In this document: piece by piece, positions 259 to 22,577 of the stretch | How positions within the stretch are numbered: position 1 is the first letter of the stretch | Layout: each line of letters opens with the position of its first letter | NCBI GenBank assembly: GCA_017882345.1 | Contig: JADGPT010000008.1 | Coordinates: 1 to 33,330, forward strand | Origin: Bacteroidales bacterium | GTDB taxonomy: Bacteria > Bacteroidota > Bacteroidia > Bacteroidales > VadinHA17 | Reading direction: 5' to 3' | Length of the DNA: 33,330 nt | Notes under the pieces: generated by a model | Told to the model about the DNA's origin: nothing | What the model saw: the letters and a program-made list of their open reading frames with translations, nothing else | Databases searched by the model: none | Translations under genes and position numbers: made by a program

Positions 259-302
259 TTTTTGTCAAAAATCTCATTATTTTCATTTATCCGGTGTACT
301 AA

Positions 303-1642
303 ATGTTTGATATTCTGTTAATATTACAATGTTTGAATACTTGTATGGATTCAACATCTTTGAAACGGTTGAAAATTATCGTGCCTGCATTATTGGCTAT
401 TCCAGGTCGGGTGACAATGCAAGGTATTTCTAGGTGGACAGAAGAAGGTGGAAGCTATCGAAGTGTTCAGCGATTTTTCAATACAACCCTAGATTGGAAA
501 AATGCTCAGTGGGCTCTTATTCGTCAATTTTTTCTGAATAGTTCTGATACTTTTATCTTAGCCGGAGATGAAACTGTCGTTACAAAATCAGGGAAAAAAA
601 CATTTGGACTCGATCGGTTTTTTTCATCCTTATTTGGAAAACCGGTTCCTGGAATATCTATTTTTGCTTTTTCTCTTGTCAGTACGAAATTGCGAATCTC
701 ATTGCCATTAATGACACAACAGATGACCCGTCCAAATGAAACAAATCCAGAAAAAACAACAAAAAAAAACTAAGTCAAGAAAAGAATAACAATGGATCAA
801 TGAAAAAAAGAGGGAGTGGGAGACCGAAAGGAAGTACAAACAAAGTCAAGGAAGACGTTGAATTATCCCCTTATCTCAAATTCATCCAGAATCTTTTATT
901 GGAAGTGATGCTGCTAATTGGAAATAACATTCACGTCAAATATGTGGTGTTTGATGGGGCATTTGGCCATTATGATGCATTGCAAATGGTCAAACTCGGT
1001 GGATTGCATCTGATTTCCAAATTGAAAAAGAACTCAAACCTATATTTTTCATATGAAGGTGCATACAGTGGAAGAGGGGCACCAAAAAAATATGGGAATA
1101 AAATAAACTATAAATATATTCCTACCAAGTTCTTGAAAAAAAGCATTTGTAAAAATTCGATTAAGACTGACATTTATCAAATGGCAATGCTCCATAAATT
1201 ATTCTCTCAACAGTTAAATATTGTGATTATAGTTAAAGAGAATCTCAAAACCAAAGCCAGGGATTTTGTTATTTTATTCAGCAGTGATCTTGATTTGGAC
1301 TATAAGAATTTGATTGACTATTACAAGCTACGTTTTCAGATTGAGTTCAATTTCCGAGATGCAAAACAATACTGGGGATTGGAAGATTTTATGAACATCA
1401 AGGAAACACCAGTCAACAACGCTGTTAACCTTGCTTTTTTTATGGTAAATCTTTCTCATATTTTAATCAACAATGTTCGTCTACAGAATGCGGAATTTAG
1501 TGTTCAAGATCTAAAAACACATTTTAGAGGCACTAAATATGTCGATGAAGTATTAAAATTACTTCCAGAAAAACTGGATCCAATTTTAATCCAGCAAATA
1601 TTTAAAGAAATGACGAGAATAGGTGGAATTAATACGGATTAA
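303..1642 (+). mobile_element. IS4-like DDE transposase split over two frames (303-773 frame 0; the second frame is open through the A-run to 1642)
   Basis: ORF1 has the first catalytic region ILAGDETVVTKSGKKTFGLDRFF. ORF2 has VVFDGAFGHYDAL and the Y-(2)-R-(3)-E-(6)-K signature YKLRFQIEFNFRDAK. Together they give a full-size (~446 aa) transposase. Confidence 0.8.
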
Positions 1643-4561: not shown

Positions 4562-5524
4562 TTAATTATTAGCCTTGGGGGAATCACAAGTACAATTAAT
4601 CTGGCTGACAATTTTTTGTCTGAGGTTCATATTAATTAATCGATTGGTCCTCTGATCAACACATTTATTACATTTTGAAAAAAGGCCAAGATCCCATATA
4701 TCTGCAAATACACGGCCTGCTTTCAAACCAATTCCATATTCCACTACAGTTTCCAGAGAGTGAATATCAGGCAGGTTGAAGTCGCCTTTTTCCATTAACA
4801 GATCCATTGCACCGTTTCCTGCTCTGACAGGAATAATAGTACAACATTCCGCCCCGCTGTTGAAAGCAAAGTATATTGATCGTTCAGCCCAATAAATACC
4901 CTCTGATTCTGAGAGCAGGGGAGGCCTGAGGAGAATAAAAGCTCTGGAACTTATATCATGGTTCGTAAGAAAGCTGACAGAATTACGGAAATCCTCCAAA
5001 GACATTTGCTTATTCAGATTACGGAGAATATCAGGATGTATAGTTTCCAGACCCATTGCAATATGTAACTCGGGTATCAGCAAATCCCTGAAATTCAGAC
5101 ATTTTTCATTGATAAGCCTTGGGTGACTTTCAACGATTACTGTTTTGAAATTTTTCAGCAGTGATGCAATTTCTCTATAGTCTTCTTCAGGAATAGCTTT
5201 TCCGTCAAAGAAACTTCCACTATTATATAACTTCAGATGCTTAACATCAGGCATTTGTTGTAACGCCCATTCAATCTGATTTGGAATTGCTCCGGCAGGT
5301 ACGGATTCATCTGTAGTGTTCTTCCAAAGATCGCACATTAAACAATGGAAGGGGCATTCCCGGTTAGTCAGAAAGATGATTCCTGTATCTTCAATGCTCC
5401 CTGAGATAGTTCGCTCTTTTTCCACAAGCCAGCCATAAGGCTTTTGAGGGTCAACAGGATTTTTGTTTCCCCTCTGAGAGACAATCCATTGATCATTGAT
5501 CAGGAAATCAGGATTTTCACTCAT
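4562..5524 (-). CDS. Radical SAM protein, resembling the RaSEA/TIGR01210-like architecture
   Basis: Cx3Cx2C motif CPFHCLMC, followed by HLKLYNSGSFFD, VIVESHPRLI, IAMGLETIHPDILRNLNKQMSLEDF and ILLRPPLLSESEG. C-terminal extra cysteines KCNKC and INCTC. Start chosen at MSENPDFLIND (5524), giving an 8-nt ATGAGTGA overlap with the upstream gene instead of the longer ORF call. Confidence 0.8.
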   Translation of the reverse strand: MSENPDFLINDQWIVSQRGNKNPVDPQKPYGWLVEKERTISGSIEDTGIIFLTNRECPFHCLMCDLWKNTTDESVPAGAIPNQIEWALQQMPDVKHLKLYNSGSFFDGKAIPEEDYREIASLLKNFKTVIVESHPRLINEKCLNFRDLLIPELHIAMGLETIHPDILRNLNKQMSLEDFRNSVSFLTNHDISSRAFILLRPPLLSESEGIYWAERSIYFAFNSGAECCTIIPVRAGNGAMDLLMEKGDFNLPDIHSLETVVEYGIGLKAGRVFADIWDLGLFSKCNKCVDQRTNRLINMNLRQKIVSQINCTCDSPKANN

Positions 5525-6845
5525 AATTTGAAAGAAACTCTTTCCTATACTCAATTTCTTTATCAGGGAAATGCCTGCTAAAGTCCCGGCTTGATACTGC
5601 GCCATGTTGGAAACGCCTTTTTTGAAAAACCGGCATTTCCATTCCTGTAATAGCCTTAACCCCATCAAAAACTATTTGTCCCTTAAGAGCATAGAGTTTC
5701 TGGTGATCCCAATTTGTCATATCAATGTAGGGAATACCCTCGGAAATTTCTATCACATTTGGTAATGTATAAGGACTGAATCCTTCGAAACCCAGGAGAT
5801 CGGAAGTTGCAAACGTTCGCATGTATCCTCTGCTCAATCCACCTGAGTAGGTTAATGAATGTTTGATTGATTCGACTCCCCAACCTTCATGGTAAAGCAT
5901 CAGATTATTCAGTACACTCCTGATAGTTAATTCAGGATTTTCCTCAATCGGATAATCTTTTAAGTTTTCATCCCCTCCGTCTCCGTCAATTATGTATTTC
6001 CATTCGGGATAGCGTGACCGGATTCCCTGCAGAAGTGATAGATTCATAGTTGCGGATTGTATATCAAGAGCTTTATAGTCTTCAACGACTTTAACAGCCT
6101 TTTTCCAATCCAGAGTAGAATAATCCACTTCAATAGGTTCAAGGAACAGCCCGAGATTAAGTGCTTCCAGAAATTTTCTTGCCTGTAATAAATCAGCGCC
6201 ATCTCCGTCAATTGAAAGCGTAAAAGCCTTTAATCTTGACGGACTTTCACCAAGTTCTTTAAGTGCATGATAGGTAAGCAGGAATACTGAACCACTATCA
6301 ATTCCAGCCGAAAAAGTTACCCCAACAGGACCTGTTTTAGCACGGAACTGCAACCATTTTTTGATTTCTTCATATAAGGCTCCGATATATTTTTCGCCAA
6401 TTTGTGCCGTATCTTCAGTGGAAAAACTATTACGTTCTGGTTTGAAAAACCGGCTATAAACAGGATTGGGATCAGGACAGCCCAACAGTTCAATTCTGGT
6501 GATATAGTGGGCTGGCGCCATTCTTGTATAAGAAGGATGAAACTGATGATCAAGTCCTTCCTTTTTCAAATAATTATAAATTACATCAATACGTTCAGCA
6601 ATTACCAATTCAGGGCCCCCGGGTCGTTTTGCAATAAAATACCGGATCGGACGTCCTATAGATCTTGCCATGCGAATGGTCTTGCCCTCAACAGAAACAA
6701 GTGAAAACTGTCCATCGATCTTTCGGACAGATTCTGCATCGCCTGATCTGACAAAATTAACGGCTTCTTCGTGTGTCATGTTATAGATGACATTCTTTTC
6801 CGGATTCGTGAGATCCGTAACCTTACTTACATATTGACTGTTCAT
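5517..6845 (-). CDS. Asparagine-synthetase-like amide ligase lacking the N-terminal glutaminase Cys
   Basis: PPi-loop motif VGVTFSAGIDSGSVFLL. Degenerate GATase-like N-terminus (IDGQFSLVSVEGKTIRMARSIGRPIRYF) but begins MNSQYV rather than MC. YIIDGDGGDEN matches the synthetase-domain GxGGDE-like motif. Confidence 0.8.
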   Translation of the reverse strand: MNSQYVSKVTDLTNPEKNVIYNMTHEEAVNFVRSGDAESVRKIDGQFSLVSVEGKTIRMARSIGRPIRYFIAKRPGGPELVIAERIDVIYNYLKKEGLDHQFHPSYTRMAPAHYITRIELLGCPDPNPVYSRFFKPERNSFSTEDTAQIGEKYIGALYEEIKKWLQFRAKTGPVGVTFSAGIDSGSVFLLTYHALKELGESPSRLKAFTLSIDGDGADLLQARKFLEALNLGLFLEPIEVDYSTLDWKKAVKVVEDYKALDIQSATMNLSLLQGIRSRYPEWKYIIDGDGGDENLKDYPIEENPELTIRSVLNNLMLYHEGWGVESIKHSLTYSGGLSRGYMRTFATSDLLGFEGFSPYTLPNVIEISEGIPYIDMTNWDHQKLYALKGQIVFDGVKAITGMEMPVFQKRRFQHGAVSSRDFSRHFPDKEIEYRKEFLSNYE

Positions 6846-6885: not shown

Positions 6886-6941
6886 AGTGCCTAAAGTGCC
6901 TAGAGTTTGGAGTGCCTAAAGTTAAAGAAAAGTAGGCACTC
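6886..6941. repeat. Short direct repeats AGTGCCTA(A/G)AGT with an inverted copy forming a 9-bp hairpin
   Basis: AGTGCCTAAAGT at 6886-6897 and 6911-6922; AGTGCCTAGAGT at 6895-6906. GAGTGCCTA (6910-6918) pairs with TAGGCACTC (6933-6941). Confidence 0.75.
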
Positions 6942-8617
6942 TATTTTGATACAATACCTGTACCCTCTACTATAGTTATATAACGGTCGGAATCAATTTT
7001 ATTGTAAACATCCTTCTTGCCATTTGACCAGTTGATCTCAAGCAAGTCGATCTTTTTTTGCTGACCAAGTCCGAAGTGTATTCTCGGATCATTGTTAGAG
7101 AGATAACTGGTTGCCCATTGGTTTACCATTACCCTCTTTTTACCACCGGCAGTAAGAGTCACTTTTGCACCTATTGCAGAAGCTGGTCCATCCTTACCTT
7201 TAAGGGTCAATCCCAGCCAGTGATTATTGTTTCCTCCATTATTTCTGAGAAGCGCTGCTGTTCCCGGCTTGTCAAGATGAGAAACGATAATATCGAGATT
7301 TCCGTCGTTATCAAAATCCCAGACAGCTAAGCTCCGACCGGAACGTTTAGTTGAGAAATAGGCTCCATGCTCTTTTCCTACATTTGAAAAATGACCTTTC
7401 CCATCATTTTCAAGCAATAATGGATACTGCAGAATTAGTTCTTCCGCGGTTCCATTTGCAGCAACTATATCGAGGTCACCGTCGTTGTCATAATCAAAGA
7501 GCTGGGCGCCCCAGCTGTTTTTACCTGCCATAGCCGCTGCGACACCACTTTGTTCAGTAATATCAACAAACAAACCATTTCCTGTGTTTTTATAAAGGGC
7601 GCCATAATCGAGATCAGTAACAAGCAGATCGATCAGACCATCACCATCGATATCACCAATAGATCCATGCATCGAACCAGTACCTTTACCCTGACTATTT
7701 GCAGCAACACCACTTTCCACGCCAACTTCCTTATAAACTCCTTTGTCATTTCTGAAAAGGAAATTCAGTTGATGATCATTTGCCTGAAAAATATCGAGAT
7801 CGCCGTCATCATCATAATCGAATACAGTCAGACCCATGCATTTTGAATCAGGGTAATAGAGTTTGTTCTTTCGGGTTACATCAACAAATTTTCCATCAGG
7901 TTGCTGCTCATACAACATTGATTCCTGCCCATTGTATTCAGTGGGACTTGGCATCATATTTGGCGATCCGGGTGAAACATAAGCAGGGTCGAAAGCCAGA
8001 AAGTTGCCGACCATTGCATCCAGTCTTCCATCGAGGTTATAATCCCAGAAAGCGACACCGATACTCCACTTTGTAAAACCGTTCAGCTTTTCAGGTCCGC
8101 CCAGACCTAATGAAGCAGTGATATCGCTGAATGTTCCATTGCCGTTATTATGATAGAATACATTTTGGCCATAATTCAAAAGATAAAGATCCTGGTAACC
8201 ATCATTGTCGAGATCGATGGCACCTGCAGCCATGCTCCAGAAGTGGCCATCTAATCCGGCAGCCTTAGAAACCTCGGTAAAAGTCCCGTTGCCATTATTT
8301 TTATATAGCTCGTTATGTGAATTTTTATTCACCTTTCCTTCAGGATCTGATATGCCTTCAAGATATGTACCGTTCATAAGGAAAAGATCCATAAAACCGT
8401 CGTTATTGTAATCAAACACTGTAATACCCGAACCACTGCTCTCGAGTATATTCTTATATGAGTTGTCTCCAAAAGTATATTTGAAAGTAATTCCTGCTTT
8501 AGAGGTTATGTCAGTGAATGTGACATTTTTTTTCTGAGCTGATGACTCAATGGTTAAAAATATCAAGAACAGGTAGTGTAAAAAAACGGGAAGTTTCTTA
8601 CTCATCTTTGGTCTCAT
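6941..8617 (-). CDS. CRTAC1-like FG-GAP repeat protein with C-terminal ASPIC/UnbV domain, secreted
   Basis: N-terminal signal sequence (KKLPVFLHYLFLIFLTIESSAQ). Repeated DYNNDGFMDL/DYDDDGDLDI motifs. C-terminal GAKVTLTAGGKKRVMVNQWATSYLSNNDPRIHFGLGQQKKIDLLEINWSNGK. ATGA overlap with the upstream gene. Confidence 0.88.
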   Translation of the reverse strand: MRPKMSKKLPVFLHYLFLIFLTIESSAQKKNVTFTDITSKAGITFKYTFGDNSYKNILESSGSGITVFDYNNDGFMDLFLMNGTYLEGISDPEGKVNKNSHNELYKNNGNGTFTEVSKAAGLDGHFWSMAAGAIDLDNDGYQDLYLLNYGQNVFYHNNGNGTFSDITASLGLGGPEKLNGFTKWSIGVAFWDYNLDGRLDAMVGNFLAFDPAYVSPGSPNMMPSPTEYNGQESMLYEQQPDGKFVDVTRKNKLYYPDSKCMGLTVFDYDDDGDLDIFQANDHQLNFLFRNDKGVYKEVGVESGVAANSQGKGTGSMHGSIGDIDGDGLIDLLVTDLDYGALYKNTGNGLFVDITEQSGVAAAMAGKNSWGAQLFDYDNDGDLDIVAANGTAEELILQYPLLLENDGKGHFSNVGKEHGAYFSTKRSGRSLAVWDFDNDGNLDIIVSHLDKPGTAALLRNNGGNNNHWLGLTLKGKDGPASAIGAKVTLTAGGKKRVMVNQWATSYLSNNDPRIHFGLGQQKKIDLLEINWSNGKKDVYNKIDSDRYITIVEGTGIVSK

Positions 8618-11600
8618 TTTTTTAAGGCATTACGAAATTCCTCTGATGTTACAACTCTTGTATTATATTCCTGAAGATACTTCTGATGTTCAGCATCTTT
8701 TGGATAAATATCATTCAAAGCAGGCGGATAACTTTTCATGCCATGAAACGGAAGAGGCATTACAGTATTGCCAAGGGCAGTATTTATATCGCCATCCTTA
8801 ACCCAGCCCACGCTGTGGATAAGAAAATCTCTTTTCCAGCCTTTTTTTAATTCCGGCAATCCTTTGGTATCAAAGGAAATAGATATTTCATCACCTGCAT
8901 TTGAGATAACATATTTATTATCCGATTCAGTCAGTAGCGGTAATACATCACCATATCGTGTATAGTTACCTGATAAATCGCGCCATTTTTTATTTTTATC
9001 AACATTTGAATAATCAAACCAGTGAGGTCCATATCTGCCTCCTTTTCTATAGGTGTGTGAAAATCCCCTGTAATGCAAGTCAGCGGAAACCGGATTAAGT
9101 ACAGTCGAAATAGTTGGAGAATTTGAGATATTATCAGAAAAAAATATATAATCCCAGTAAATCTCCATATTTGTCCTGATCCTGATTCTATGATCCCCTG
9201 ACAGAAATTTGGATGAAAGATCAGCAATTACTGTTTTATCCTTTCCCATCGGAAAACCCAGGTTTTCAATAACCGTTTCCCAATCACCTTTACCATTTAA
9301 AACCTGTATGAAGGGACGAATCACTTTCAGATCGCCGGATTGTGAGAGAGCAACATTAATACTGGCATCAGTAGGAAAGATCCATCCATTCAGGAAAAGG
9401 AACAGGTTTTTGGTTGTCCCATACTTACCAGGATCCAGAATCAGGTCATGCATTTCAGTAACTCCCTGGTATTTATCAGGTTTGAAATCAGCCAGATATT
9501 TGTCATCTTTCTCTGCTATAAAAGAAAGAACGTCATTTCCATGGGAATCTCTTGCAGTAACCGGGATGTGTTTTTCTTTTACCTGAAATTGTTGGTTGCC
9601 CGGGAATGGTGGTGGCGAAAATTGTTCAGGAACAAAAATGTCGACTGAATCGGGATGATCTACGGTAACCAGTTGTACCTTGTCGAAGAACATTGTCTCC
9701 CATAGTTCTGAGGTCAGCTGAATTGAATAGAGTCCGTTTTTTGGTGTTAATAAATCACCTGGTACTTTTATATAGTCATCAGATGCATCGGGGAATGCAT
9801 AAGCAGTATTGCCTCCCATAATACCAAGAGGCATTCCGAGTGCGCTTCTCCACATGACATCCTTTACAAATACAAATTCATTGCCATTCCAGGTGAAAAG
9901 AAACGGGCATGAACCTTTCAGTGTCTGTGCCTCAATCAATGCCTGATCGGTACCCGGTGAAAATATATTCTGTGGTACACCATTTGTCCAGGTGATTCTT
10001 ATAACATCGGCTTTTGACCGTGATCCAAGTCCGAAATGAACGTTAGGATCAGTCACAATCATAGATTGGTAAAGATCACCTGCACGTATTTCCACTTTTG
10101 CTCCGATTCCAAAATGGTTATTCTTTGCACTGCCGGCTCTTAACCCAATAAGCTTCATTCTGACATAATGGTTAATGTTTCCGCCGTCATTTCGTAAGAG
10201 TGAAATGCCACCATTCAAGCCGGCAATTACCACATCGATGTCACCGTCATCATTATAATCAAACAGTGCTATTTGTCTTCCTGATTTCGGTTCTTCGGGA
10301 AGCAGTCTGGAGACATCTTCAAAATTCCCTTTCCCGTCATTATGATAAAGAAACAGTCCCCGGCCACCTTTTTCTTCTGATTCACCGGCAATAATAAGAT
10401 CCTGAAATCCGTCATTGTCAAAATCAAAAAACTTAGCATCATAGACTTTAATGTGCTGAATAGCAGAGAACATTTCGTCGGTTCTTTTTTCCTGTTCAAA
10501 ACTCCCATTACCCTTATTCCGGAACAATTTTTGGCTGCCTCCATTAACTGACGAAATGAAAAGGTCAGGAAATCCATCATTATTGTAATCACCTACAGCT
10601 ACTGCACCGGATCCTCCATTACTTTTCAGACCGGTTTCTAAGGTGACATCTTTAAAAACTCCCTGCCGCTGATTAGAATATAAAACATTACTGGCATTCT
10701 CATTCACAACAAAAAGATCAATGTCGCCATCGTCATCAAAATCTCCAAATGCAGCTTCCCGGCTATTAGCATTAACACAAGATAATCCCATTTTTTCTGC
10801 CTGTTCTTCAAAAGTACCATCACCATTATTCCTGAACATCAGATTTGAATTTGATCTTGTCTCATACAGGTCAAGATCTCCATCGTGGTCCATATCAAAG
10901 AATAAAGCCTTATTTCCGCCGGATTTGCTGCCTATCTTTGCTTTATTTGTTACATCTTCAAAAACTCCTTTTCCTGCATTTCTGTATAAAACATCACCGC
11001 CCTCCTTTACAATATAGAGGTCGGGAAAACCATCGTTGTCATAATCGGCAAATGCTGCTGAAGATTCCTTGCCCGTATGTTTGATCCCGACCTGTTCTGC
11101 AACATCCTTAAACCTCCCCATATCATTATTGAAAAGGTAATGCTTATAAGATGAGGTAGCAGGATCATAACTACCCACATAAAGATCCACATCACCATCA
11201 CCATCATAATCAGCTGCCTCAACATGCGTGGAATTTTTAAATTCAGGATATTTATCCCCATCATAAACCGGAACAATATTCAACCCCGAAGATATTGTTG
11301 CATTGGTGAACTTTATTACATCCAGGAGCGATTTATTTTCACCGGGCTGGGAGGAGGGTTGGTGATCATAAGTAATAAGCGGGAAACCAATCAATGAACC
11401 ACCAGGACCCTTTAACTCCATAATACCAGCCTGATATGGTGAAGTAACCTTAAGATAATTATGGAAAATTGTAAATTGTATAAATGCATTTTCCTTATCC
11501 GGTTTTTTCAGCAATGAGAGGGTTTTATCATAATAATTAATGGCTTCCTTTGGAAACTCGGGAAATTGCTTTTGAATTATTTCCAGTTGTTCTATTGCCT

Positions 11601-12174
11601 TGTCGGTGTCACCGTTGCGGATATATATTTCGGTCAGATTAAGTCGTGGGACTAAATTTTCCGGTGCTTTTTCAACAAGCAGAAGCAGGAACTTCTTTCT
11701 TTGTTGTTGAGATTCCTCGTCAGATCCTGCAGAATATAATTCAGAAAGATCATATAGTATTTTAATATGATCAGGAGCAAATTTAAGAGCCTTTTCAAGT
11801 TCTGAAACAGCTTTTTCACGTTCATCATTCATCTGGTAAACAGTAGCCAATAATAATCTGATATCAGGATCTTTTTGATCAATTTTAATCGCTTTAAAAA
11901 GCTGTTTTTCAGCTTCCGGATATTTACCCATTCTTAGATATGCCAATCCCAGATTTGCATACCCCAGTTTTTCATCCGGTGCCAGTTTAATAAACTTCAG
12001 GAATTCCTTTTCAGCTTCATCAAGCTTAAACTCTTCAAGGTAAGCCAGGCCCATTGTCTGGGTAGTCATCAATTCAACTGATTTTTTTTTGCTGTCTTGC
12101 GGAGTCTCTTTGCAACTAAACAGAAAAGAGGAGCAAAGCATGATCAGTAATAAAATGTTATTGTTCTTCATCAT
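8614..12174 (-). CDS. TPR + FG-GAP + ASPIC/UnbV lipoprotein with ~430-aa C-terminal extension
   Basis: Lipobox LFSC. TPR repeats (EKEFLKFIKLAPDEKLGYANLGLAYLRMGKYPEAEKQLFKAIKIDQKDPDIRLLLA). Multiple DYDxDGxxDL motifs, then GIGAKVEIRAGDLYQSMIVTDPNVHFGLGSRSKADVIRITWTNG, then SCPFLFTWNGNEFVFVKDVMWRSALGMPLGIMGG and onward. Confidence 0.88.
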   Translation of the reverse strand: MMKNNNILLLIMLCSSFLFSCKETPQDSKKKSVELMTTQTMGLAYLEEFKLDEAEKEFLKFIKLAPDEKLGYANLGLAYLRMGKYPEAEKQLFKAIKIDQKDPDIRLLLATVYQMNDEREKAVSELEKALKFAPDHIKILYDLSELYSAGSDEESQQQRKKFLLLLVEKAPENLVPRLNLTEIYIRNGDTDKAIEQLEIIQKQFPEFPKEAINYYDKTLSLLKKPDKENAFIQFTIFHNYLKVTSPYQAGIMELKGPGGSLIGFPLITYDHQPSSQPGENKSLLDVIKFTNATISSGLNIVPVYDGDKYPEFKNSTHVEAADYDGDGDVDLYVGSYDPATSSYKHYLFNNDMGRFKDVAEQVGIKHTGKESSAAFADYDNDGFPDLYIVKEGGDVLYRNAGKGVFEDVTNKAKIGSKSGGNKALFFDMDHDGDLDLYETRSNSNLMFRNNGDGTFEEQAEKMGLSCVNANSREAAFGDFDDDGDIDLFVVNENASNVLYSNQRQGVFKDVTLETGLKSNGGSGAVAVGDYNNDGFPDLFISSVNGGSQKLFRNKGNGSFEQEKRTDEMFSAIQHIKVYDAKFFDFDNDGFQDLIIAGESEEKGGRGLFLYHNDGKGNFEDVSRLLPEEPKSGRQIALFDYNDDGDIDVVIAGLNGGISLLRNDGGNINHYVRMKLIGLRAGSAKNNHFGIGAKVEIRAGDLYQSMIVTDPNVHFGLGSRSKADVIRITWTNGVPQNIFSPGTDQALIEAQTLKGSCPFLFTWNGNEFVFVKDVMWRSALGMPLGIMGGNTAYAFPDASDDYIKVPGDLLTPKNGLYSIQLTSELWETMFFDKVQLVTVDHPDSVDIFVPEQFSPPPFPGNQQFQVKEKHIPVTARDSHGNDVLSFIAEKDDKYLADFKPDKYQGVTEMHDLILDPGKYGTTKNLFLFLNGWIFPTDASINVALSQSGDLKVIRPFIQVLNGKGDWETVIENLGFPMGKDKTVIADLSSKFLSGDHRIRIRTNMEIYWDYIFFSDNISNSPTISTVLNPVSADLHYRGFSHTYRKGGRYGPHWFDYSNVDKNKKWRDLSGNYTRYGDVLPLLTESDNKYVISNAGDEISISFDTKGLPELKKGWKRDFLIHSVGWVKDGDINTALGNTVMPLPFHGMKSYPPALNDIYPKDAEHQKYLQEYNTRVVTSEEFRNALKK

Positions 12175-12240: not shown

Positions 12241-13365
12241 TTACCTTTCAAGTGTGACCGGAATACCGTTTTTAATTTCTATCAGGACGGGTGTACCCAC
12301 ACGTTTTCCTTTATCATCAAATTGAATAGACCCTGTGACACCTTCAAAATGTATTTTTTTTAATGATTGTTGAATTTCATCTCTATCGGGACCGGCAATT
12401 CTGATAGCTTCAAGAAGTAAGCTCATGCCATCAAATGAATATGTTGCAATTGCACCTGGTATTTTACCATAAGTTTTCTTATAATCCTCCCGGAAGACTA
12501 TACCCTTTGATCCTGTCCGGTTTCCTGAGGAGACTAATACAACATTCTCATAATCTTTCAGGTACTGACCGGATAATTCATCTTCATAAAGAATTGACAA
12601 AGCACCAAAAACGGATTGATTCATTTTCCTTTGTCGTAACTGACGAATTAATCTCAATGAAGAAGATGGATTTCCAAATAAAACAATAGCACTGATCTCA
12701 GCTTTTTTGATCTTATCAAGTAAGTCAATAAAATCCTTATCCGGGGAATCGTAAAACAGCTGTAACGGATCTGCTTTACCTGCCAGCTTAGTTTTTTTCA
12801 GTAAGCTTTCAACAGCTAATTTCGAATCATAGCCCTTATCTGAAACGGTAGCTACTTTAGTAAGTCTTTTTTTATTGTATATTTCTTCAATGAAAGCATC
12901 TGCCTGCTGAAGATCGTTTGGTATACAGGTAAAATACCATGGTACGAAAGCCTGAGCAAGAGTAGGATCACTTGCCCATGTGGATAAATAAACAATTCTG
13001 GCTTTAGTCGTAACCTGTTCAACCAGGTGACCATTTCTCCCATCAGGAGAACCCATTATTGCACACACATTTTCTTCAAAGATTAGGTCAACTGCCTGTT
13101 TGGACCCTGTGCCCCAGGGGCCTTCCATTGACCGGATAACCAACCGGAACGGTTTACCATTTAATCCTCCATTTTCATTGGCTTTCCTTATTGCCATCTC
13201 AGCGCCATGCTTTGCAGCTATAGAATTATTATCAGGTATTAATAGTCCGATTTTTATGGTCTTGTCAGGTACTATGTGTTCTTGTATAGCTTTCACATCC
13301 ATGGCAATAAATCCAGGCAGGGCAAAAATAAAGAATGAATGTAATACTACCGAACGTAATCTCAT
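12241..13365 (-). CDS. Periplasmic LivK-type (Peripla_BP_6-like) ligand-binding protein
   Basis: Hydrophobic leader, then IKIGLLIPDNNSIAAKHGAEMAIRKANENGGLNGKPFRLVIRSMEGPWGTGSKQAVDLIFEENVCAIMGSPDG; C-terminal TYSFDGMSLLLEAIRIAGPDRDEIQQSLKKIHFEGVTGSIQFDDKGKR. Confidence 0.85.
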   Translation of the reverse strand: MRLRSVVLHSFFIFALPGFIAMDVKAIQEHIVPDKTIKIGLLIPDNNSIAAKHGAEMAIRKANENGGLNGKPFRLVIRSMEGPWGTGSKQAVDLIFEENVCAIMGSPDGRNGHLVEQVTTKARIVYLSTWASDPTLAQAFVPWYFTCIPNDLQQADAFIEEIYNKKRLTKVATVSDKGYDSKLAVESLLKKTKLAGKADPLQLFYDSPDKDFIDLLDKIKKAEISAIVLFGNPSSSLRLIRQLRQRKMNQSVFGALSILYEDELSGQYLKDYENVVLVSSGNRTGSKGIVFREDYKKTYGKIPGAIATYSFDGMSLLLEAIRIAGPDRDEIQQSLKKIHFEGVTGSIQFDDKGKRVGTPVLIEIKNGIPVTLER

Positions 13366-13379: not shown

Positions 13380-14261
13380 CTAGATTAAAGGTTTTGGTAC
13401 TGAAATCTCTCTCCCTATTGCCTGTGCAATTTTTATAAGATCGGATATCAATCGGTCAAATTCATCAAGGTTAAGTGATTGGTAACCGTCACAAAGCGCT
13501 TCTTCAGGTTTATAATGAACTTCTATTATGAGGCCGTCTGCACCAACAGCCACTGCAGCTTTAGCCATTGGGGGTACCATCCACCTGACACCGGTTCCGT
13601 GACTTGGATCGACTATTACAGGGAGATGACTGAGCCGTTTCAACATTGGGACTGCACTGAGGTCGAGTGTATTTCGCGTTGAAGTTTCAAAAGTACGTAT
13701 CCCACGTTCACATAGAATTACCTGGTCATTACCCTGATGAAGGATATATTCAGCGGCAAGTAAGAATTCCTCTACAGTAGCCATCATCCCCCGCTTCAGT
13801 AATATCGGTTTCCTGCACATTCCCACCTCTTTCAAAAGTGGATAGTTTTGCATATTGCGTGAACCGATCTGAATCATATCGGCATAAGACGCTACCAGTT
13901 CTACCTGACGGGTATCCATCACTTCTGTTACCACAGGCAACCCTGTTTCCTTTCTGATGAGACTAAGGAGTTTTAATCCCTCTTCTCCCAAACCCTGAAA
14001 GTTATAAGGTGATGAGCGAGGTTTGAAAGCACCACCTCTCAGGATTTTTGCTCCGCCTGCCTTAACTGATCTGGCAGTTTCGAATAGTTGTTCCCGGTTC
14101 TCAACTGCACATGGTCCGGCAATAATAACAATTTCAGAACCACCTACCTGAACTCCGTTAATATTCACGATTGTGTCGTCCGGCTTTGTCTGACGACTCA
14201 CTCTTGATGGAACGGAAGATCCCCCGTTAACAGGTTTATTACATGGATTTGTTTCAATCAT
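13380..14261 (-). CDS. aroF: 3-deoxy-7-phosphoheptulonate (DAHP) synthase, AroF Ibeta-type, without the N-terminal ferredoxin-like regulatory domain
   Basis: [108 protein letters not shown]. Only ~35 residues of unrelated sequence precede the barrel. Confidence 0.9.
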
Positions 14262-14276: not shown

Positions 14277-15584
14277 TTAATAACTTCCGGTTTTAGTTGT
14301 CTGATGAATAGTACCCATTGGTGGCGACGGGTTAAATTCGAACTTGCCATTATGAACTTCAGCCATCCAGATGTCTCCAATATCATTCCAGGTATCATCA
14401 AATACAATTTTACCTGTGACTCCCTGATAACCCTGAAAAGTTTTCAGATCAGTGAGCAGATCGCGGATAAGAACCCTGTTAAGACCGGCTTTTTGAATGG
14501 ATTCAATGATAATGTTCATACCGTCATAAGCATGCGCCGCAAATACGTCCGGTTCCTGACCGAATCTCTTGAAATAATTCGATTGAAATGCCTTTAACTT
14601 TGGGTTATCTGCATTGGGATTATACTGACAAGTAGTTACAATGCCTTCGGCCAGATTCCCTGCAATTTTAAGAAACTCAGGGGAGACCATCCTGTCAGAG
14701 CCATAGACCGGCTGTTTCAGTCCAATCGCACGTATCTGTTGTAATATCAGTGCAGATTCTTTGGCATTTCCCCAGATAAGTATAGCATCAGGCACAGTGA
14801 CTAATATTCTCTCCACCTGTGTTTTGAAATCTGTTTCACCATCGTTAAATTTCTCTTCGATAACTATTGGATGACCAACACGTGTGGCTGTCTCTGAGAA
14901 TATCTTGATACCGACTCTTCCATACCTGTTATTAGCTCTTATTACTGCTACCCTGGAATGACTATCCTTCTTATAAATCTGGTTAACCAATGCGTAGCTG
15001 CTCTGCCTGTCATCGCTGATCACGCGTATTACCCAAGGTATATTGGTCTCAGTAAAAGTTGGATCCGGATCACCTGTACAAACCATGGGTATCTCCATTT
15101 TGAGAGTAGCCCTGATTGCAACATGTGAAACTATATCGTCGATAGAACCCAGCCATGCCCAGACCTTTTCATCATCCATTTTCACCACTTCGTTGGCGGC
15201 AGCACCCCATGCTCCAACATCATTGTGGATCATTAATTTGTAGGGCATGTTATGATAGCCGCCTTTTTTATTAGCTTCTTCAATTGCCAGAGTAGCCCCG
15301 TTTAACATCTGTTTCCCCAAAGATACTATTACAGAGCCTTCCAATGGTCCAAGGAAACCGATCCGTACTTCTTTGAGATCAGAAGGAGGCTTCAATTCAC
15401 GACCCGCGCCATTAAATTGGAGTGGCACAAGAAAATGATATACATAAGCTTTCTGAAATTTTTGATAAGGGAAAATTTCATCAGTAGCTTTACCATAGTT
15501 CTGTTTCTTTTCCTGTCCTGTTATATTTGAAATGGAACTCAGAATAAGTAAAACAATTGCCAATATCCTAAAGTTAAGTTTCAT
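14277..15584 (-). CDS. Periplasmic LivK-type ligand-binding protein (second copy)
   Basis: Signal peptide MKLNFRILAIVLLILSSISNITGQ (start chosen at 15584, not the ORF-track start inside the upstream gene). VRIGFLGPLEGSVIVSLGKQMLNGATLAIEEANKKGGYHNMPYKLMIHNDVGAWGAAANEVVKM; FAAHAYDGMNIIIESIQKAGLNR. Confidence 0.85.
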   Translation of the reverse strand: MKLNFRILAIVLLILSSISNITGQEKKQNYGKATDEIFPYQKFQKAYVYHFLVPLQFNGAGRELKPPSDLKEVRIGFLGPLEGSVIVSLGKQMLNGATLAIEEANKKGGYHNMPYKLMIHNDVGAWGAAANEVVKMDDEKVWAWLGSIDDIVSHVAIRATLKMEIPMVCTGDPDPTFTETNIPWVIRVISDDRQSSYALVNQIYKKDSHSRVAVIRANNRYGRVGIKIFSETATRVGHPIVIEEKFNDGETDFKTQVERILVTVPDAILIWGNAKESALILQQIRAIGLKQPVYGSDRMVSPEFLKIAGNLAEGIVTTCQYNPNADNPKLKAFQSNYFKRFGQEPDVFAAHAYDGMNIIIESIQKAGLNRVLIRDLLTDLKTFQGYQGVTGKIVFDDTWNDIGDIWMAEVHNGKFEFNPSPPMGTIHQTTKTGSY

Positions 15585-15594
15585 GATATTATTT

Positions 15595-16170
15595 TTAGTT
15601 TGATTTGCAAATTGCATATACTTCAATTTCAACCAATAGGGTTTCCCAGCATAACCTTGCCTGAATTCCTGTGCTGGCAGGTAAAGGATCAAGATTTAAC
15701 CACTGGTAGAAAGAGGTTCGGATTTTATTGAATTCCGTATAATCCCTTTCGATATCCCTGAGATAATTTGTCGTTCTTACTACATCATGCCAGGTCATCT
15801 TTTCAGCCGAAAGAAGATTGGTTATATTAAGGTATGTTCTCCAGAGCTGTGCCTTAAAATCACCAATATGTTCGGCTTTGCCTTCCTCGTTAACGCTTGC
15901 TGTACCTGATACGAGCAAAACCTTGTGACCGCCGAAATCCAGACGCAATGCCCTGGAAAAGGATGATGGCTTCTGATAGTTATATGCTTCATTGATTACC
16001 TTTGGTGCATGGACCATATGTTTTTCAATAGGAGGTCGATCGTTATGAAGAGTTGGATAGACAGATCTGATTATTTTGTTTTCTTCGGATAATATCCCCA
16101 GCTTTTTCATTTCGAGCCGCTCTCCATCAGTAAGATTTGAGAGATCTATCAATAATTGTTTTTCATCCAT
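15595..16170 (-). CDS. RidA/YjgF-superfamily protein, possibly chorismatase-like
   Basis: VLLVSGTASVNEEGKAEHIGDFKAQLWRTYLNITNLLSAEKMTWHDVVRTTNYLRDIERDYTEFN and PLPASTGIQARLCWETLLVEIEVYAI. RidA C-terminal pattern with VEIE, but PAST replaces the PAR of canonical RidA. Confidence 0.75.
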   Translation of the reverse strand: MDEKQLLIDLSNLTDGERLEMKKLGILSEENKIIRSVYPTLHNDRPPIEKHMVHAPKVINEAYNYQKPSSFSRALRLDFGGHKVLLVSGTASVNEEGKAEHIGDFKAQLWRTYLNITNLLSAEKMTWHDVVRTTNYLRDIERDYTEFNKIRTSFYQWLNLDPLPASTGIQARLCWETLLVEIEVYAICKSN

Positions 16171-16228: not shown

Positions 16229-17389
16229 CTATTTCATCAACTCTCCACGACTCACTCCTTTTTCAGTAGCAACCCAGAGGACATCTTTATCAGCATCAAC
16301 ACCAATAATGAAATTATGTGCAATTGATGGTGATAATGGTATTTCTTTAGTTGTTTTATTTATGGTGTTATCATCATTACGACCAAAATTTTTTATGATG
16401 GCCATTCCATCGTTGTTATTGTCATTTTTCTTGTATGTCACCCAGCTCTTGCCGTCAGTACTGCTTAAACCTTTGTCGCTGCAGATAAAAACCACGGGAC
16501 CTTTCGCCCTGATGAAATTGATAAAGTTGCTGGCCAGACCACTGTCATGATCGAAATACCCTTTCCAGTGACTCCCATCATAACGACTCATTCCGAAATA
16601 TGTAGATACCCACAAGATACCGTCCGCGTAAGAAGTGGCGGTGGTTATATCGTGAACTATTCCATCGTCGGGGAGGAGATCAATTTCCATTTCCCCATCT
16701 GGATCGGTATAATCCTTGAATTTTTTTGTTTTGGTTGTGTACTCAATTACACCTCCTCCCCAGGCTGCAATAAAGATCTTCCCATCTCCGGCAGAAACGC
16801 CATAAGTCCATGGCTCATGCATGGGAGCATTCTTTTCTGTAAAAATTTCCCATGCTTTTGTGTAAGTATCATAATGACCAGCTCCGCCTGCTGTGGCAGC
16901 CCATACATCTTTACCGTCACAAATAACGCAGTAAACCAGATCATTGGGAAGACCACTATTTAACTGTGTAAAGGTTTCAAATTTACCGGCTGACCATCGG
17001 TTTAAGCCGCCAAATGTTCCAATCCAAACATCGCCGGTCAGTTCGCTTACATCTATTGAAACAACACCATTATGAGCCAGACCGTCCTTTGTGGTATATG
17101 TTTTCCATTTCCCATCCTCATAAACTGAAAGACCTTCATGAGTTCCAACCAATACACGGTTTCCGTCTATGCGAACACAATAAGCATGATCTGATGGTAA
17201 ACCGTCCTTAGTTGTGAAATTTTTCCAATGGCCATACACAGGCATTGGTTTGGCATCATCTTTAGAATGGGCGTTAGCCGGGCTTTTTTCAGCAGAGGGC
17301 TGAGAATTTATAACAGCGACAGAACAAATACCGCAAAGGATCACTGCAACTGCAGTTCGCGGGATGTTTTTTCGAAATATCTTTCTCAT
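16229..17389 (-). CDS. Secreted two-component-regulator-propeller (Reg_prop-like) beta-propeller protein with no kinase domain
   Basis: Signal-like N-terminus. Repeats WKNFTTKDGLPSDHAYCVRIDGNRVLVGTHEGLSVYEDGKWKTYTTKDGLAHNGVVSIDVSELTGDVWIGTFGGLNRW and LWVATEKGVSR. Confidence 0.82.
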   Translation of the reverse strand: MRKIFRKNIPRTAVAVILCGICSVAVINSQPSAEKSPANAHSKDDAKPMPVYGHWKNFTTKDGLPSDHAYCVRIDGNRVLVGTHEGLSVYEDGKWKTYTTKDGLAHNGVVSIDVSELTGDVWIGTFGGLNRWSAGKFETFTQLNSGLPNDLVYCVICDGKDVWAATAGGAGHYDTYTKAWEIFTEKNAPMHEPWTYGVSAGDGKIFIAAWGGGVIEYTTKTKKFKDYTDPDGEMEIDLLPDDGIVHDITTATSYADGILWVSTYFGMSRYDGSHWKGYFDHDSGLASNFINFIRAKGPVVFICSDKGLSSTDGKSWVTYKKNDNNNDGMAIIKNFGRNDDNTINKTTKEIPLSPSIAHNFIIGVDADKDVLWVATEKGVSRGELMK

Positions 17390-17400
17390 GATTTTCTTTC

Positions 17401-19434
17401 TTAGTTAGATTGGTTTTTAGCATGAAATTTCTTTGAAACATTATGTTCATAAGCCGGAGCTCTCAGAGATTTAAGATAATCAATCAAATCATTGAGCTGA
17501 TTTTTTGTCATATCATTAACCCGTCCATGCTTGTCTTCCTTCCCGTACTTAGTCCATATCTCCTCGAGTGTTGCAGCACGCCCGTCATGCAAATATGGTG
17601 GTGAAGCATAAATATTATTAAGATGAGGAGTATCAAATAGCATGGAATCATCACTTGAAGCAAGCGTTTTAACGTAAGCCATTTTCAGATTTGTATAGTA
17701 AGGGGGAGGGTGACAGGTTATGCACCTGTTATTTTCCGGGATATCATTTCCAAGGTTGTCCATTGTACGATCAAATATTGCTTTGCCCCTAAGTTGAGAT
17801 TCCGTAAGTTCTCCGTTTGGATTATACTGGAGATTCGGAGGATAAGGTATCCCTGTTATAATATAAGCAGTAATAGCATCAAGATCCTTATAATTAAACT
17901 GTTCCGTCCTTGTCAGAACTGTTGAAAAACGCATTCCGTCCTGTTTATATACAGTCTGATTTTTACCATTCCACTTGTATGGGGGTGTATCTCCTATATC
18001 GCGTAAAGATTGTGTATTGGTCAGATTGCGTCCCATATCCGTTGATGCCATGTTGTATACAAGGCCATCCTCATGCATATCAGGATGACAGGTATAACAG
18101 TCAAACTGATTCTGAAAAGTGTGTCCGGAATTATTGAAAAGCCTGCGACCTTGCCGGGCAACAGTAATCTTATTGGGACCACCGAGGTCGATAGTGCTTA
18201 CTGTCTCAAGGCTTTTGGTATTTATCACAGCTATCCTGTCTTCCAGTTGTTCTGCGACATACAGAAGTTTCCCGTCAGAGGAGAGTGCTAGTCCTTTAGG
18301 ATTTGCACCTGTTTTAATTCGTTTAATGACATATCTGCTGCTGATTCCAAGATTATCAGAATATGAATTTAAAAGTTCCGGGGAAGATTTATCTATCAAA
18401 GACCTGACAGAATCAATATTGACAACAGAAATAGTATTTACGCCTGAATGGGATACAAATGCTTTTTTACCATCGGGTGTTATGACTATATCAAAGGGAT
18501 CTGAATAGTATGCATTCGGTTCATCAAGCAACAACTGAATAACTCTGCCATTCTCTTTCTGCTCAATGACCACAATTCCATAGGTCATCATCCATCCCAG
18601 TTCAACCTGGATTGACGGAACCAGGTTTTTGGGTCTGATCATGGTAACTATTGCCAGATCTCCGGTAGGAGTGAAGGCAATATTTTCCATCATATACGCT
18701 GATTCGATGTTTCGCCGTCCGGTTATTTTTTGGGAGTTTTCATCTAAAACTGTGATCTCGCTCTTTAATGTCTCACCGTACGGGGCAATCAGAGCACGCC
18801 TGCTGGTCACATATAAAGTTTTCCCGTCGGGTGACAATTGTGTTCCCGTAGGATTATTTCCTGTATCAAACCTTTTTCTTTCTTCCCCTGTATTCAGGTC
18901 CAGGACAGAAATATTTGATGAGTACGAATTGACAACATAAAGAGATTTGTTATCAGCACTCAGAGACAGGCCGGCAGGACCATTACCTGTTTTCAGAGTA
19001 TCAACTACTTTTGATGTGCTTAAATCTATTACCGATACATCATCCGACCATTCATTACTTACATAAGCACGTTGTCCGTCATTGCTGAGAATCACACTAT
19101 GAGGAAGATTACCGACAATAATCTTTTTCAACACCTTCTTTTTTTCAGGATCAACAACAAGTAAGGCATTATCTTCCTGAGCAACAACATACAGACGGTC
19201 ACCCTCTTTTGATACAGCCATATTAAAAGGTGACATATACTTTCTATTCACCAATTTTGATATAAAACCACTTTTTTGAGTGTAAAGATGACACGATAGA
19301 CAGTTGAGAGGGTGGTCCCCAACGGCAGTTTTGGAATTAACATGGACTCTTGCCCATTTTCGTCCCGGGAAATATACAATTAATCCAAGTACGGAAAAAA
19401 ACAGTAAAACCGAGAGTATTCCGGATGTCTTCAT
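17401..19434 (-). CDS. YVTN/YncE-like beta-propeller fused to MauG/cytochrome-c-peroxidase-like region; three CxxCH heme sites
   Basis: CxxCH: CLSCH (N-terminal), CYTCH and CITCH (C-terminal). Propeller blades VGNLPHSVILSNDGQRAYVSNEWSDDVSVIDLSTSKVVDTLKTGNGPAGLSLSADNKSLYVVNSYSSNISVLD. C-terminal DTPHLNNIYASPPYLHDGRAATLEEIWTKYG is typical of MauG/CCP families. Confidence 0.88.
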   Translation of the reverse strand: MKTSGILSVLLFFSVLGLIVYFPGRKWARVHVNSKTAVGDHPLNCLSCHLYTQKSGFISKLVNRKYMSPFNMAVSKEGDRLYVVAQEDNALLVVDPEKKKVLKKIIVGNLPHSVILSNDGQRAYVSNEWSDDVSVIDLSTSKVVDTLKTGNGPAGLSLSADNKSLYVVNSYSSNISVLDLNTGEERKRFDTGNNPTGTQLSPDGKTLYVTSRRALIAPYGETLKSEITVLDENSQKITGRRNIESAYMMENIAFTPTGDLAIVTMIRPKNLVPSIQVELGWMMTYGIVVIEQKENGRVIQLLLDEPNAYYSDPFDIVITPDGKKAFVSHSGVNTISVVNIDSVRSLIDKSSPELLNSYSDNLGISSRYVIKRIKTGANPKGLALSSDGKLLYVAEQLEDRIAVINTKSLETVSTIDLGGPNKITVARQGRRLFNNSGHTFQNQFDCYTCHPDMHEDGLVYNMASTDMGRNLTNTQSLRDIGDTPPYKWNGKNQTVYKQDGMRFSTVLTRTEQFNYKDLDAITAYIITGIPYPPNLQYNPNGELTESQLRGKAIFDRTMDNLGNDIPENNRCITCHPPPYYTNLKMAYVKTLASSDDSMLFDTPHLNNIYASPPYLHDGRAATLEEIWTKYGKEDKHGRVNDMTKNQLNDLIDYLKSLRAPAYEHNVSKKFHAKNQSN

Positions 19435-19436
19435 AT

Positions 19437-20876
19437 CTATTCCAATGAAACCTTTTTCTCAATAACTTTATTTATATGCCCCGGTATAACAACCGGCGAT
19501 TTCTTAACTGAAAGGGGTACCCTGTTCACTGGTACCATTTCCGGATCCTGGTGACAGCCAACGCATCCGCGACGTTCATTGGGGCGTAACCAAATCCAGT
19601 CACTGGGCCCTCGCAAAATATGCCCGTCTTTATCAACTGTCTGAATCTGAAATGGTTTATCAGCCAAAACTTTTAAATAAAATGAACCATCCTCCTCAAC
19701 ATCAATAGATCCGAGAGTTGAGTCTATTCCCACGATTTCAATTCTGGACGATTTAGGAAAGGAGGCAGTATTACCTGAAGATTGCATATCTGATACATTG
19801 ATATCCTGGCAGAGAAGTAATCCTGTTTTTACTCCCATATCCAATTCACTTGGCAGTTTTTTTGGTCTGTCATGTTTTCCGGTTTCAACGGCTTCCAATA
19901 CATCATATTCTGCATTGTTGTACAATACTTTTCCAAGTGCTTTATTATCCGGATCAAATTCATAAAGTGCATACCGGTCTGATTCAGACTTCCGGTATGA
20001 AACCATTAGTCTGCCGGAATGCAGGGGGCAAACAGCGTGAAAATCACCTCCAATTTCAGAAGTAAGATTAACCCTTGAATGTAATGGCCTGTTATAACTT
20101 ATGGAGATCAGATTGCCTTTTCCCCTGAAAACTTTATCGGATTCTATAAAGACTATTCTGCCATTATTTGTTTCCAATCCGGGGCTGGTTATAAATGTGT
20201 CTTTTGTGCCTTTATAAAACATGTCTGCCTTTGTTCCATCAGGTCGTAAGATGATAAACATCGGATCTCCCTTCTCAGGAAAGATCTGTCTTCCTACAGT
20301 TAAAACCCGGCCATCACTCAAAATACTTGATGCAAAATAGGTATGAGGATTAAAAGTAATTCGTTTTAAATTGCTTCCATCGAGATTACAGGTATAGAGG
20401 GAATGCCCTGCTTTCAATGTGTCATTAGGAGCGAATTTGCTGAAAACCAAGCGTCCACCTGGCAGATAAGCTGGATCAGTACAGTTTTCTTTAGAAGCAA
20501 TTATCTGCCTTGTTTTTAAATCTCTCAGATTCATTTCCCATATCTGCCACGGATCGTTTTGTTTTTGCTGGCCGGCAAAAAGCAAATATTTTCCGTCAAA
20601 TGAAATTTGAGGAGACCTGGCCGAATAGTAATTGGTGGTAAGTACCTTCACTGATCCTGCCGGGTTATTGGGGTCTAATGCTACAATCTGTGCCTGAGGG
20701 ATATATCTCCAGGAATCTGTGGTATCATAATCTAAATATTTTGTTTTTCCTGAAGACCGTGTAAAAACTATCATCTCATTCATGGACTTTTCCGAGCATG
20801 ATGAAAAAAAGATACAGGCAGAGCCAATGGCCATCACGACGAAAAAGACTATAGTCGCTCTTATTTTATTCATCAA
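19437..20876 (-). CDS. PD40/TolB-like propeller lipoprotein with C-terminal heme c site; HzsA-like C-terminal organisation
   Basis: Lipobox FFSSCSE. PQISFDGKYLLFAGQQKQNDPWQIWEMNLRDLKTRQI and DPAYLPGGRLVFSKFA blades. C-terminal GSIDVEEDGSFYLKVLADKPFQIQTVDKDGHILRGPSDWIWLRPNERRGCVGCHQDPE. Confidence 0.78.
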   Translation of the reverse strand: MMNKIRATIVFFVVMAIGSACIFFSSCSEKSMNEMIVFTRSSGKTKYLDYDTTDSWRYIPQAQIVALDPNNPAGSVKVLTTNYYSARSPQISFDGKYLLFAGQQKQNDPWQIWEMNLRDLKTRQIIASKENCTDPAYLPGGRLVFSKFAPNDTLKAGHSLYTCNLDGSNLKRITFNPHTYFASSILSDGRVLTVGRQIFPEKGDPMFIILRPDGTKADMFYKGTKDTFITSPGLETNNGRIVFIESDKVFRGKGNLISISYNRPLHSRVNLTSEIGGDFHAVCPLHSGRLMVSYRKSESDRYALYEFDPDNKALGKVLYNNAEYDVLEAVETGKHDRPKKLPSELDMGVKTGLLLCQDINVSDMQSSGNTASFPKSSRIEIVGIDSTLGSIDVEEDGSFYLKVLADKPFQIQTVDKDGHILRGPSDWIWLRPNERRGCVGCHQDPEMVPVNRVPLSVKKSPVVIPGHINKVIEKKVSLE

Positions 20877-20885: not shown

Positions 20886-22577
20886 TTAAGGTTCTTTGAC
20901 AGTAAGGATCTGATTGACTTTTACATTATTGAGGACCTGTATTTTGCCTGAAGGCCATTTTATCTCGATTCTATCAACAATCTCATTCTTAGCGAGTCCA
21001 AAATGCATTCTCGGGTCGTTTTGCGAAAGGTAACCAGATGTGCTTTTTTTCTGAGCCGTCTGTACTTTACCTCCGGAAGTGATTTTTACCCTCGAACCTA
21101 TTCCGTCTCTGTTGCTTGTTGTTCCCACCAGATTAAGGGTTATCCAGTTGTTTTGATTTCCTTTATTGTTTCTCAAAAATGCCCCACGGTCATTCAGATT
21201 TACAATATAGCCATCTATATCGCCATCATTGTCATAATCGCCAAAACAAGCCCCACGACCAACAAGCTTTTGCAAAAAGTATTTACCCATTTCTGTGGAA
21301 ACATCCTTGAATTTGCCATTGCCAATATTCTCAAAAAGCTGATCTTCCTGTCCATATAGATGTTTAAGAGCACCGTTTGCTTTATAAATATCAATTAATC
21401 CATCGTTGTTATAATCAATAAACGATGAGGACCATCCGACAAACTGACCGGCCGGCATAGCAATTCCTGAAGTATACGACTGATCGGTGAAAATCCCGTT
21501 ACCCTTGTTTTCATAAAGCCTGCAGTATTTATCGTCAGAAACAAAAATATCTACAAGACCGTCGCCATTATAGTCAGCAAAATCGACTGCCATGCTTACA
21601 GCTGATTCTCCTGACTGACCGAATGCCGTCCCTGATGGAGTTCCCATATCGGTGAAACCTTTTCCACCATTATTATGCCAGAGATAATTCATTGAATGGT
21701 CATTGGCTACATAAATATCAACGAAACCATCATCATCATAGTCTACGGCGCCAACACCCATGGCTCTTCCGTCAATATCAACGATTCCCATTTTTTTTGT
21801 CACATCTTCAAAGGTACCATCTCCATTATTGTGATAAAGAATATCCGGCTGTGCGTCATAGGACAATGGACCAGGAAAGCCGTCAGGAGCATAAAAATAT
21901 TTATAATCAGGATCAAAATTCAGGTAATTGCCTACATAAAGATCGAGGAAGCCATCATTATCGTAATCCAGCCAAACAGCGCCTACACTGAATTCATTTT
22001 CTCCTCCCCCGACTTTTGCGCGTTTAGTAACGTCTGTAAATGTGCCATTACCGTTATTTTTATAGAGCACATTTGCTCCGTAATTACTAACGTATAAATC
22101 AGGATAACCATCATTATTGTAATCGCCGACTGTTACTCCCATACTATACCATGGTCCACCTACACCCGCTTTTTTGGTTACATCTTCAAAAGTGCCGTCT
22201 CCACGGTTGTGATAGAGATGGTTCTCTGGCATTTTATCAGGTTTGTCACCACTGCTTAAACCTTTAATCCAGGTGCCGCTGCAAACATATAGATCGATAT
22301 ACCCGTCCTGATCGTAATCGAGAAATGCGGCTCCTGCGCCACTTGATTCAACAATATTTGAAAGTTCATTGTCACCGATAGAATGAACAAAATCCAGGCC
22401 TATCTCTTTACCGATCTCCTGAAAATAGTCATCATTTGCAGCCGGTACGGATGCAACAGAACTGGAAAAAGACCTGGTATTGGATTTGCAGGCGGAAATT
22501 GTTAGCAAAAAGATGAAAAGAAAAACAAGGAAGCCGGATTCATTTGATTTGCTGCAAAACTTCTTTTTTACAATCAT
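20886..22577 (-). CDS. CRTAC1-like FG-GAP + ASPIC/UnbV lipoprotein
   Basis: Lipobox LTISAC. GLDFVHSIGDNELSNIVESSGAGAAFLDYDQDGYIDLYVCSG; many DYNNDGYPDLYVSNYG repeats; GIGSRVKITSGGKVQTAQKKSTSGYLSQNDPRMHFGLAKNEIVDRIEIKWPSGK. Confidence 0.9.
   Translation of the reverse strand: MIVKKKFCSKSNESGFLVFLFIFLLTISACKSNTRSFSSSVASVPAANDDYFQEIGKEIGLDFVHSIGDNELSNIVESSGAGAAFLDYDQDGYIDLYVCSGTWIKGLSSGDKPDKMPENHLYHNRGDGTFEDVTKKAGVGGPWYSMGVTVGDYNNDGYPDLYVSNYGANVLYKNNGNGTFTDVTKRAKVGGGENEFSVGAVWLDYDNDGFLDLYVGNYLNFDPDYKYFYAPDGFPGPLSYDAQPDILYHNNGDGTFEDVTKKMGIVDIDGRAMGVGAVDYDDDGFVDIYVANDHSMNYLWHNNGGKGFTDMGTPSGTAFGQSGESAVSMAVDFADYNGDGLVDIFVSDDKYCRLYENKGNGIFTDQSYTSGIAMPAGQFVGWSSSFIDYNNDGLIDIYKANGALKHLYGQEDQLFENIGNGKFKDVSTEMGKYFLQKLVGRGACFGDYDNDGDIDGYIVNLNDRGAFLRNNKGNQNNWITLNLVGTTSNRDGIGSRVKITSGGKVQTAQKKSTSGYLSQNDPRMHFGLAKNEIVDRIEIKWPSGKIQVLNNVKVNQILTVKEP

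Follow-up and report, generated by a model that had tools for sequence, protein, structure and literature searches.

What do an asparagine-synthetase-like ligase and a radical SAM protein, encoded by overlapping genes, do together? The question is raised by a 33,330-nucleotide stretch of Bacteroidota DNA (the window), in which the two genes, referred to here as Lig and rSAM, stand at the end of a conserved operon encoding heme proteins that resemble hydrazine synthase (Table 1). The two-gene observation, which goes back to an initial annotation of this DNA, was confirmed as real. The Lig ORF (5517-6845, minus strand) has an ATG start and an N-terminus reading MNSQYVSK, and thus begins with MNSQ rather than Met-Cys, as had been claimed; the 8-nt overlap with the next gene is also present. 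The rSAM frame is open back to position 5668, giving a 347-aa version. Its M28, encoded by the ATG at 5524, is nearly invariant across the family, and we preferred this start because of that conservation and because the resulting 8-nt overlap recurs at 65 of 80 related loci.

Table 1. Features of the gene pair and of the surrounding operon in the window
Feature	Position	Strand	Basis
rSAM, radical SAM protein, TIGR01210/RaSEA superfamily, 320 aa	4562..5524	-	TIGR01210 105.6 bits (cut-off 212); model pLDDT 88
rSAM CX3CX2C [4Fe-4S] motif CPFHCLMC	5333..5356	-	three Cys invariant in 52 sequences
Lig stop/rSAM start overlap, 8 nt, translational coupling	5517..5524	-	same overlap at 65/80 loci
Lig, asparagine-synthetase-like ligase, 442 aa	5517..6845	-	PF00733 33.8 bits; AsnB alignment; fold match to asparagine and beta-lactam synthetases
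Lig K409, counterpart of AsnB K449	5619..5621	-	invariant, 65 homologues
Lig DGDGGDE loop (AsnB SGEGSDE; E348 position D or E)	5967..5987	-	65-homologue alignment
Lig PP-loop SAGIDSG (SGGxDS motif)	6291..6311	-	S, G, D, S, G invariant, 65 homologues
FG-GAP/ASPIC (CRTAC1-like) protein, next gene upstream of Lig	6941..8617	-	Pfam; conserved order
TPR-FG-GAP-ASPIC protein	8614..12174	-	Pfam; C-terminal domain in each of the 18 Lig+ genomes (297 searched)
Peripla_BP_6 substrate-binding protein 1	12241..13365	-	Pfam
DAHP synthase	13380..14261	-	NF006421 458 bits, over cut-off
Peripla_BP_6 substrate-binding protein 2	14277..15692	-	Pfam
RidA-fold protein	15595..16170	-	PF01042 55.8 bits
Propeller-repeat protein	16229..17389	-	PF07494
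Hydrazine-synthase beta-gamma-like protein	17401..19434	-	NF052342 229.5 bits, cut-off 1250
Hydrazine-synthase alpha-like protein	19437..20876	-	PF18582 66.1 bits, over cut-off; NF052339 110.6 bits, cut-off 800
FG-GAP/ASPIC protein, first gene of run	20886..22577	-	Pfam

To look at the distribution of the pair, 297 Bacteroidota genomes were searched. Lig was recovered from 18 of them, belonging to nine families, and a full-length rSAM gene from exactly the same 18, a strict co-occurrence. GTDB contigs yielded 295 rSAM relatives; among 97 loci with rSAM, Lig adjoins it on the same strand at all 94 where both genes could be placed. Given these numbers, the association is not due to chance. The mirror-tree correlation between the two families is high (rho 0.90), a value expected from shared ancestry and therefore not taken as evidence of contact. 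Both proteins come from known superfamilies and their pairing is described in none of the open-access papers searched; PADLOC gave no match for a defence system. The Lig tree separates into two supported clades, A and B (support 99/96). Clade A contains the window together with loci from metagenome-assembled genomes labelled Fidelibacterota (Marinimicrobia), Nitrospinota, Calditrichota, Deferribacterota and Chlorobiota, phylum labels for which misbinning of single assemblies is possible. In the genome of the window, a 63-aa open frame with 70% identity to the rSAM C-terminus (G000:C256:7874-8053) is probably an rSAM remnant.

Lig scored above the cut-off of Pfam Asn_synthase PF00733 in profile searches (33.8 bits, cut-off 21) and did not reach that of TIGR01536, the glutamine-hydrolysing asparagine synthetases (30 bits, cut-off 267). 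Alignment with E. coli AsnB and with the genome's own AsnB, a normal enzyme encoded elsewhere, showed that AsnB residues 1 to about 95, Cys1 included, are missing from Lig, which thus has no glutamine-fed ammonia of its own. The loss of the Ntn nucleophile proposed from the start of the protein is correct as regards the cysteine but was understated, since the glutaminase domain has lost its entire N-terminal half. No Met-Cys start was seen among the Lig homologues, a possibility that had been named as a check on this proposal. The ATP-pyrophosphatase domain, in contrast, is shared with AsnB: Lig has the PF00733 score, PP-loop, GxGxDE-type loop and Lys449 equivalent by which ligases of this type are recognised, and the last three are conserved over 65 homologues. 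The AsnB-348 position is Asp in 55 and Glu in 10 of these sequences, and is therefore acidic as in AsnB, whereas the aspartate-site TTIR is replaced in the Lig family, which has an invariant Asp there, and a long family-specific insertion follows the GxGxDE loop. The structure model of Lig has a mean pLDDT of 78, with values below 50 for residues 291-338, so that the alignment of the insertion depends on a low-confidence region.

The Lig model matched the folds of asparagine, beta-lactam and carbapenam synthetases and of TsnB9; PDB searches gave no meaningful sequence relative of either Lig or rSAM. The last three of these enzymes share with Lig an asparagine synthetase fold that does not use glutamine-derived ammonia, and they are among the best structural matches, but identities are only 10-16% and Lig has a truncated N-terminal domain. 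The position of the Tyr in the catalytic Tyr-Glu dyad of beta-lactam and carbapenam synthetases is Asp or Glu in the Lig family, acidic as in AsnB, and the earlier parallel with beta-lactam synthetases fails at this residue. The parallel with lasso cyclases does not hold either, no lasso-type precursor being conserved. That lasso cyclases are asparagine-synthetase-like and radical SAM enzymes common in RiPP clusters (PMC13060819) might have suggested an ordinary RiPP or lasso-type peptide maturation pair. This reading is barely credible and was rejected, as no conserved small ORF that could encode a precursor peptide was found within 3 kb of the pair in either clade; the genes of the window are, moreover, tightly packed.

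The second protein contains the CPFHCLMC motif and the other sequence blocks quoted in the initial annotation, which had likened it to the RaSEA group. RaSEA (TIGR01210) is indeed its nearest curated family, with shared blocks in the alignment and an E-value of 2.8e-30, but the score of 105.6 bits is half of the cut-off of 212.15 and the RaSEA equivalog is not reached; the alignment also contains a family-specific CDLWKNTT block. The structure model (pLDDT 88) matched general radical SAM folds only, such as Elp3, MgmA and MiaB, and rSAM falls in no characterised family, which had been a further point to check. Judged by its sequence, rSAM is RaSEA-like but not RaSEA. An auxiliary Fe-S cluster bound by a C-terminal CxxC...CxC was considered and rejected, these cysteines being lost in three relatives (L102-L104). 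Two other proteins are closer to RaSEA than rSAM: a Bacteroidota protein from a genome without the Lig family (L111, 9620-10852, minus strand; 209 bits to TIGR01210, just below the cut-off) and a Streptomyces relative (L092, 173 bits).

Archaeosine is an archaeal modification. In its synthesis in T. kodakarensis, ArcS attaches lysine and RaSEA finishes the reaction; ArcS binds its partner in a complex and has no activity in its absence (PMC11298593). Lig-rSAM resembles this system in combining a partner enzyme with a radical SAM protein of the same superfamily, in the obligate partnership and in the shared sequence blocks. It differs from it in that an asparagine-synthetase-like ligase replaces ArcS, in the score at half of the RaSEA cut-off, in the CDLWKNTT block, in having no diagnosed substrate site in common, and in being bacterial, patchy and linked to secreted proteins. 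A RaSEA-like modification of a nucleoside or tRNA by the pair, to which the relation to TIGR01210 and the presence of Elp3 and MiaB among the fold matches could point, is very improbable: presence in 18 of 297 genomes and linkage to secreted proteins are unlike RNA modification, and profile searches recognised no RNA-binding domain in Lig.

We tentatively propose, as the best-supported reading, plausible but short of probable, that Lig and rSAM act one after the other in a single cytoplasmic pathway, probably in physical contact, with Lig joining an amine and rSAM then carrying out a radical reaction. Lig would use ATP to adenylate a carboxylate, which would be attacked by a primary amine, and not by glutamine-derived ammonia, to give an amide adduct. 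With its [4Fe-4S] cluster and SAM, rSAM would then abstract a hydrogen from this adduct and cleave or rearrange it, much as RaSEA processes the lysine adduct from ArcS. We infer the substrates, the order of the steps, the product and its use; Lig could instead take free ammonia, or an amine group that its substrate already carries. In favour of this proposal we counted the presence of both genes in the same 18 of 297 genomes, the constant overlap, the missing glutaminase half, the kept ATP-pyrophosphatase residues, the normal AsnB elsewhere in the genome, the position of RaSEA as the nearest curated family of rSAM, the ArcS/RaSEA precedent, the lack of a precursor peptide and the flavin enzyme of clade B described below; against it, the distance of rSAM from the RaSEA cut-off, the lack of a diagnosed RaSEA substrate site in common and the low model confidence at the Lig insertion.

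The two enzymes may also act at different positions of one pathway, in which case Lig would make a lactam or simple amide and the radical step of rSAM (formation of a C-C or C-heteroatom bond, or epimerisation) would be unrelated to it. Many natural-product pathways work in this way, and asparagine-synthetase-like enzymes in such pathways yield lactams, amides and even nitriles (PMC13060819). A plasmid search returned only two rSAM relatives, both from Streptomyces (L092, 8857-9972; L093, 8680-9795); these RaSEA-like proteins adjoin a P450, an SHMT-like protein, a glycosyltransferase and a carbamoyltransferase, in a neighbourhood that looks like a natural-product cluster. The absence of a ligase of the Lig kind beside the P450, the SHMT-like protein and the carbamoyltransferase fits such a separate role for the radical SAM protein. 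We nevertheless regard this arrangement as somewhat unlikely, since the overlap is fixed and the pairing strict while the other neighbours change, which suggests that the steps of Lig and rSAM are directly consecutive.

The wider operon had gone unnoticed when the pair itself was correctly recognised. In the window, the genes run in the order FG-GAP/ASPIC, alpha-like, beta-gamma-like, propeller, RidA-fold, binding protein, DAHP synthase, binding protein, TPR-FG-GAP-ASPIC, FG-GAP/ASPIC, Lig and rSAM, and relatives retain this order with rotations and losses. No ABC permease or ATPase gene for the two Peripla_BP_6 proteins was found among the window genes scanned. At the left end of the window, transposase-like frames occupy 28-1642 (plus strand), with a short fragment followed by a gene split over 303-773 and 800-1642, a judgement made from the sequence alone. 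The alpha-like and beta-gamma-like genes (17401-20876, minus strand), here in non-anammox Bacteroidota, encode one and three CxxCH motifs and miss the NCBIfam hydrazine synthase cut-offs by far (110.6 bits against 800 for alpha, 229.5 against 1250 for beta-gamma). In gene order and in number of heme motifs they agree with the clade III homologues described by Hagglund et al. 2025 (PMC12758564), whose operon has in common with the window an FG-GAP gene upstream of alpha, a fused beta-gamma with one extra heme motif and two substrate-binding proteins downstream. In the text of PMC12758564 there is no mention of a radical SAM protein or of a gene like that of asparagine synthetase.

In clade A, the pair thus sits with FG-GAP/ASPIC proteins and often with a clade III hydrazine-synthase-like operon. 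Among 60 near genomes, 22 of the 24 having either Lig or the beta-gamma homologue have both; a strict tie between the pair and the hydrazine-synthase-like genes was rejected, 8 of 17 other pair genomes being without them. At four loci (L075, L078, L084, L085), the rSAM gene is followed by a gene for a membrane-anchored multiheme c554-type cytochrome, which replaces the hydrazine-synthase-like genes. According to the consecutive-step proposal, the product would, in clade A, probably be used with the secreted FG-GAP/ASPIC proteins and c-type hemoproteins. A more specific version, in which amine ligation and then a radical step outside RNA would make a new small redox cofactor or metabolite serving the neighbouring hydrazine-synthase-like, multiheme or flavin enzymes, appears improbable.

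DAHP synthase is encoded near the pair in 27 loci, and a two-domain chorismatase homologue of the FkbO/Hyg5 type adjoins it in three (L040, 7968-9194; L049, 3649-4821; L051, 2140-3312). A chorismate-derived acyl substrate was not adopted, as, over 60 related genomes, the presence of the chorismatase within the genus does not follow that of Lig.

Clade B, which had likewise escaped notice, always has a third gene, placed directly after rSAM in most loci; it encodes a flavin enzyme that belongs to the Trp-halogenase/QhpG/CmlS superfamily. All 17 clade B genomes have this enzyme, and none of the other genomes among the 297 does. Under the consecutive-step proposal, this flavin monooxygenase-type enzyme would complete a trio. 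Its presence also bears on protein modification, in which Lig, rSAM and, in clade B, the flavin enzyme would produce a terminal modification or a cofactor derived from a protein, much as QhpD/QhpG or MauG systems do. QhpD and QhpG act together on one protein (PMC7876137), and in QHNDH cofactor maturation, as in clade B, a radical SAM enzyme has a flavin enzyme beside it, both flavin enzymes belonging to one superfamily; the clade B flavin enzyme gave scores against QhpG, LodB and GoxB, all below the cut-offs (59-75 bits against QhpG for three members, cut-off 240), and the superfamily is broad. Unlike the QhpD/QhpG system, clade B has an rSAM matching TIGR01210 only, an additional asparagine-synthetase-like ligase and no QhpC-like substrate. 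Profile searches of clade A found diheme MauG/CCP-like domains, and the C-terminal domain of the TPR-FG-GAP-ASPIC protein is present in 18 of 18 Lig-containing genomes, often unlinked, but also in 11 of the 297 without Lig. As the surroundings of the pair contain no small protein that is conserved and could serve as substrate, we consider protein modification unlikely and retain amine ligation followed by radical chemistry as our working proposal.

Taken together, an obligate ligase/radical-SAM pair, perfectly co-occurring in the genomes sampled and distributed over several phyla, is a good lead to new chemistry. The pair would allow testing whether the attach-amine-then-radical logic of ArcS and RaSEA operates outside archaeal tRNA, and it offers genetics a way into the clade III operons of hydrazine-synthase-like genes.
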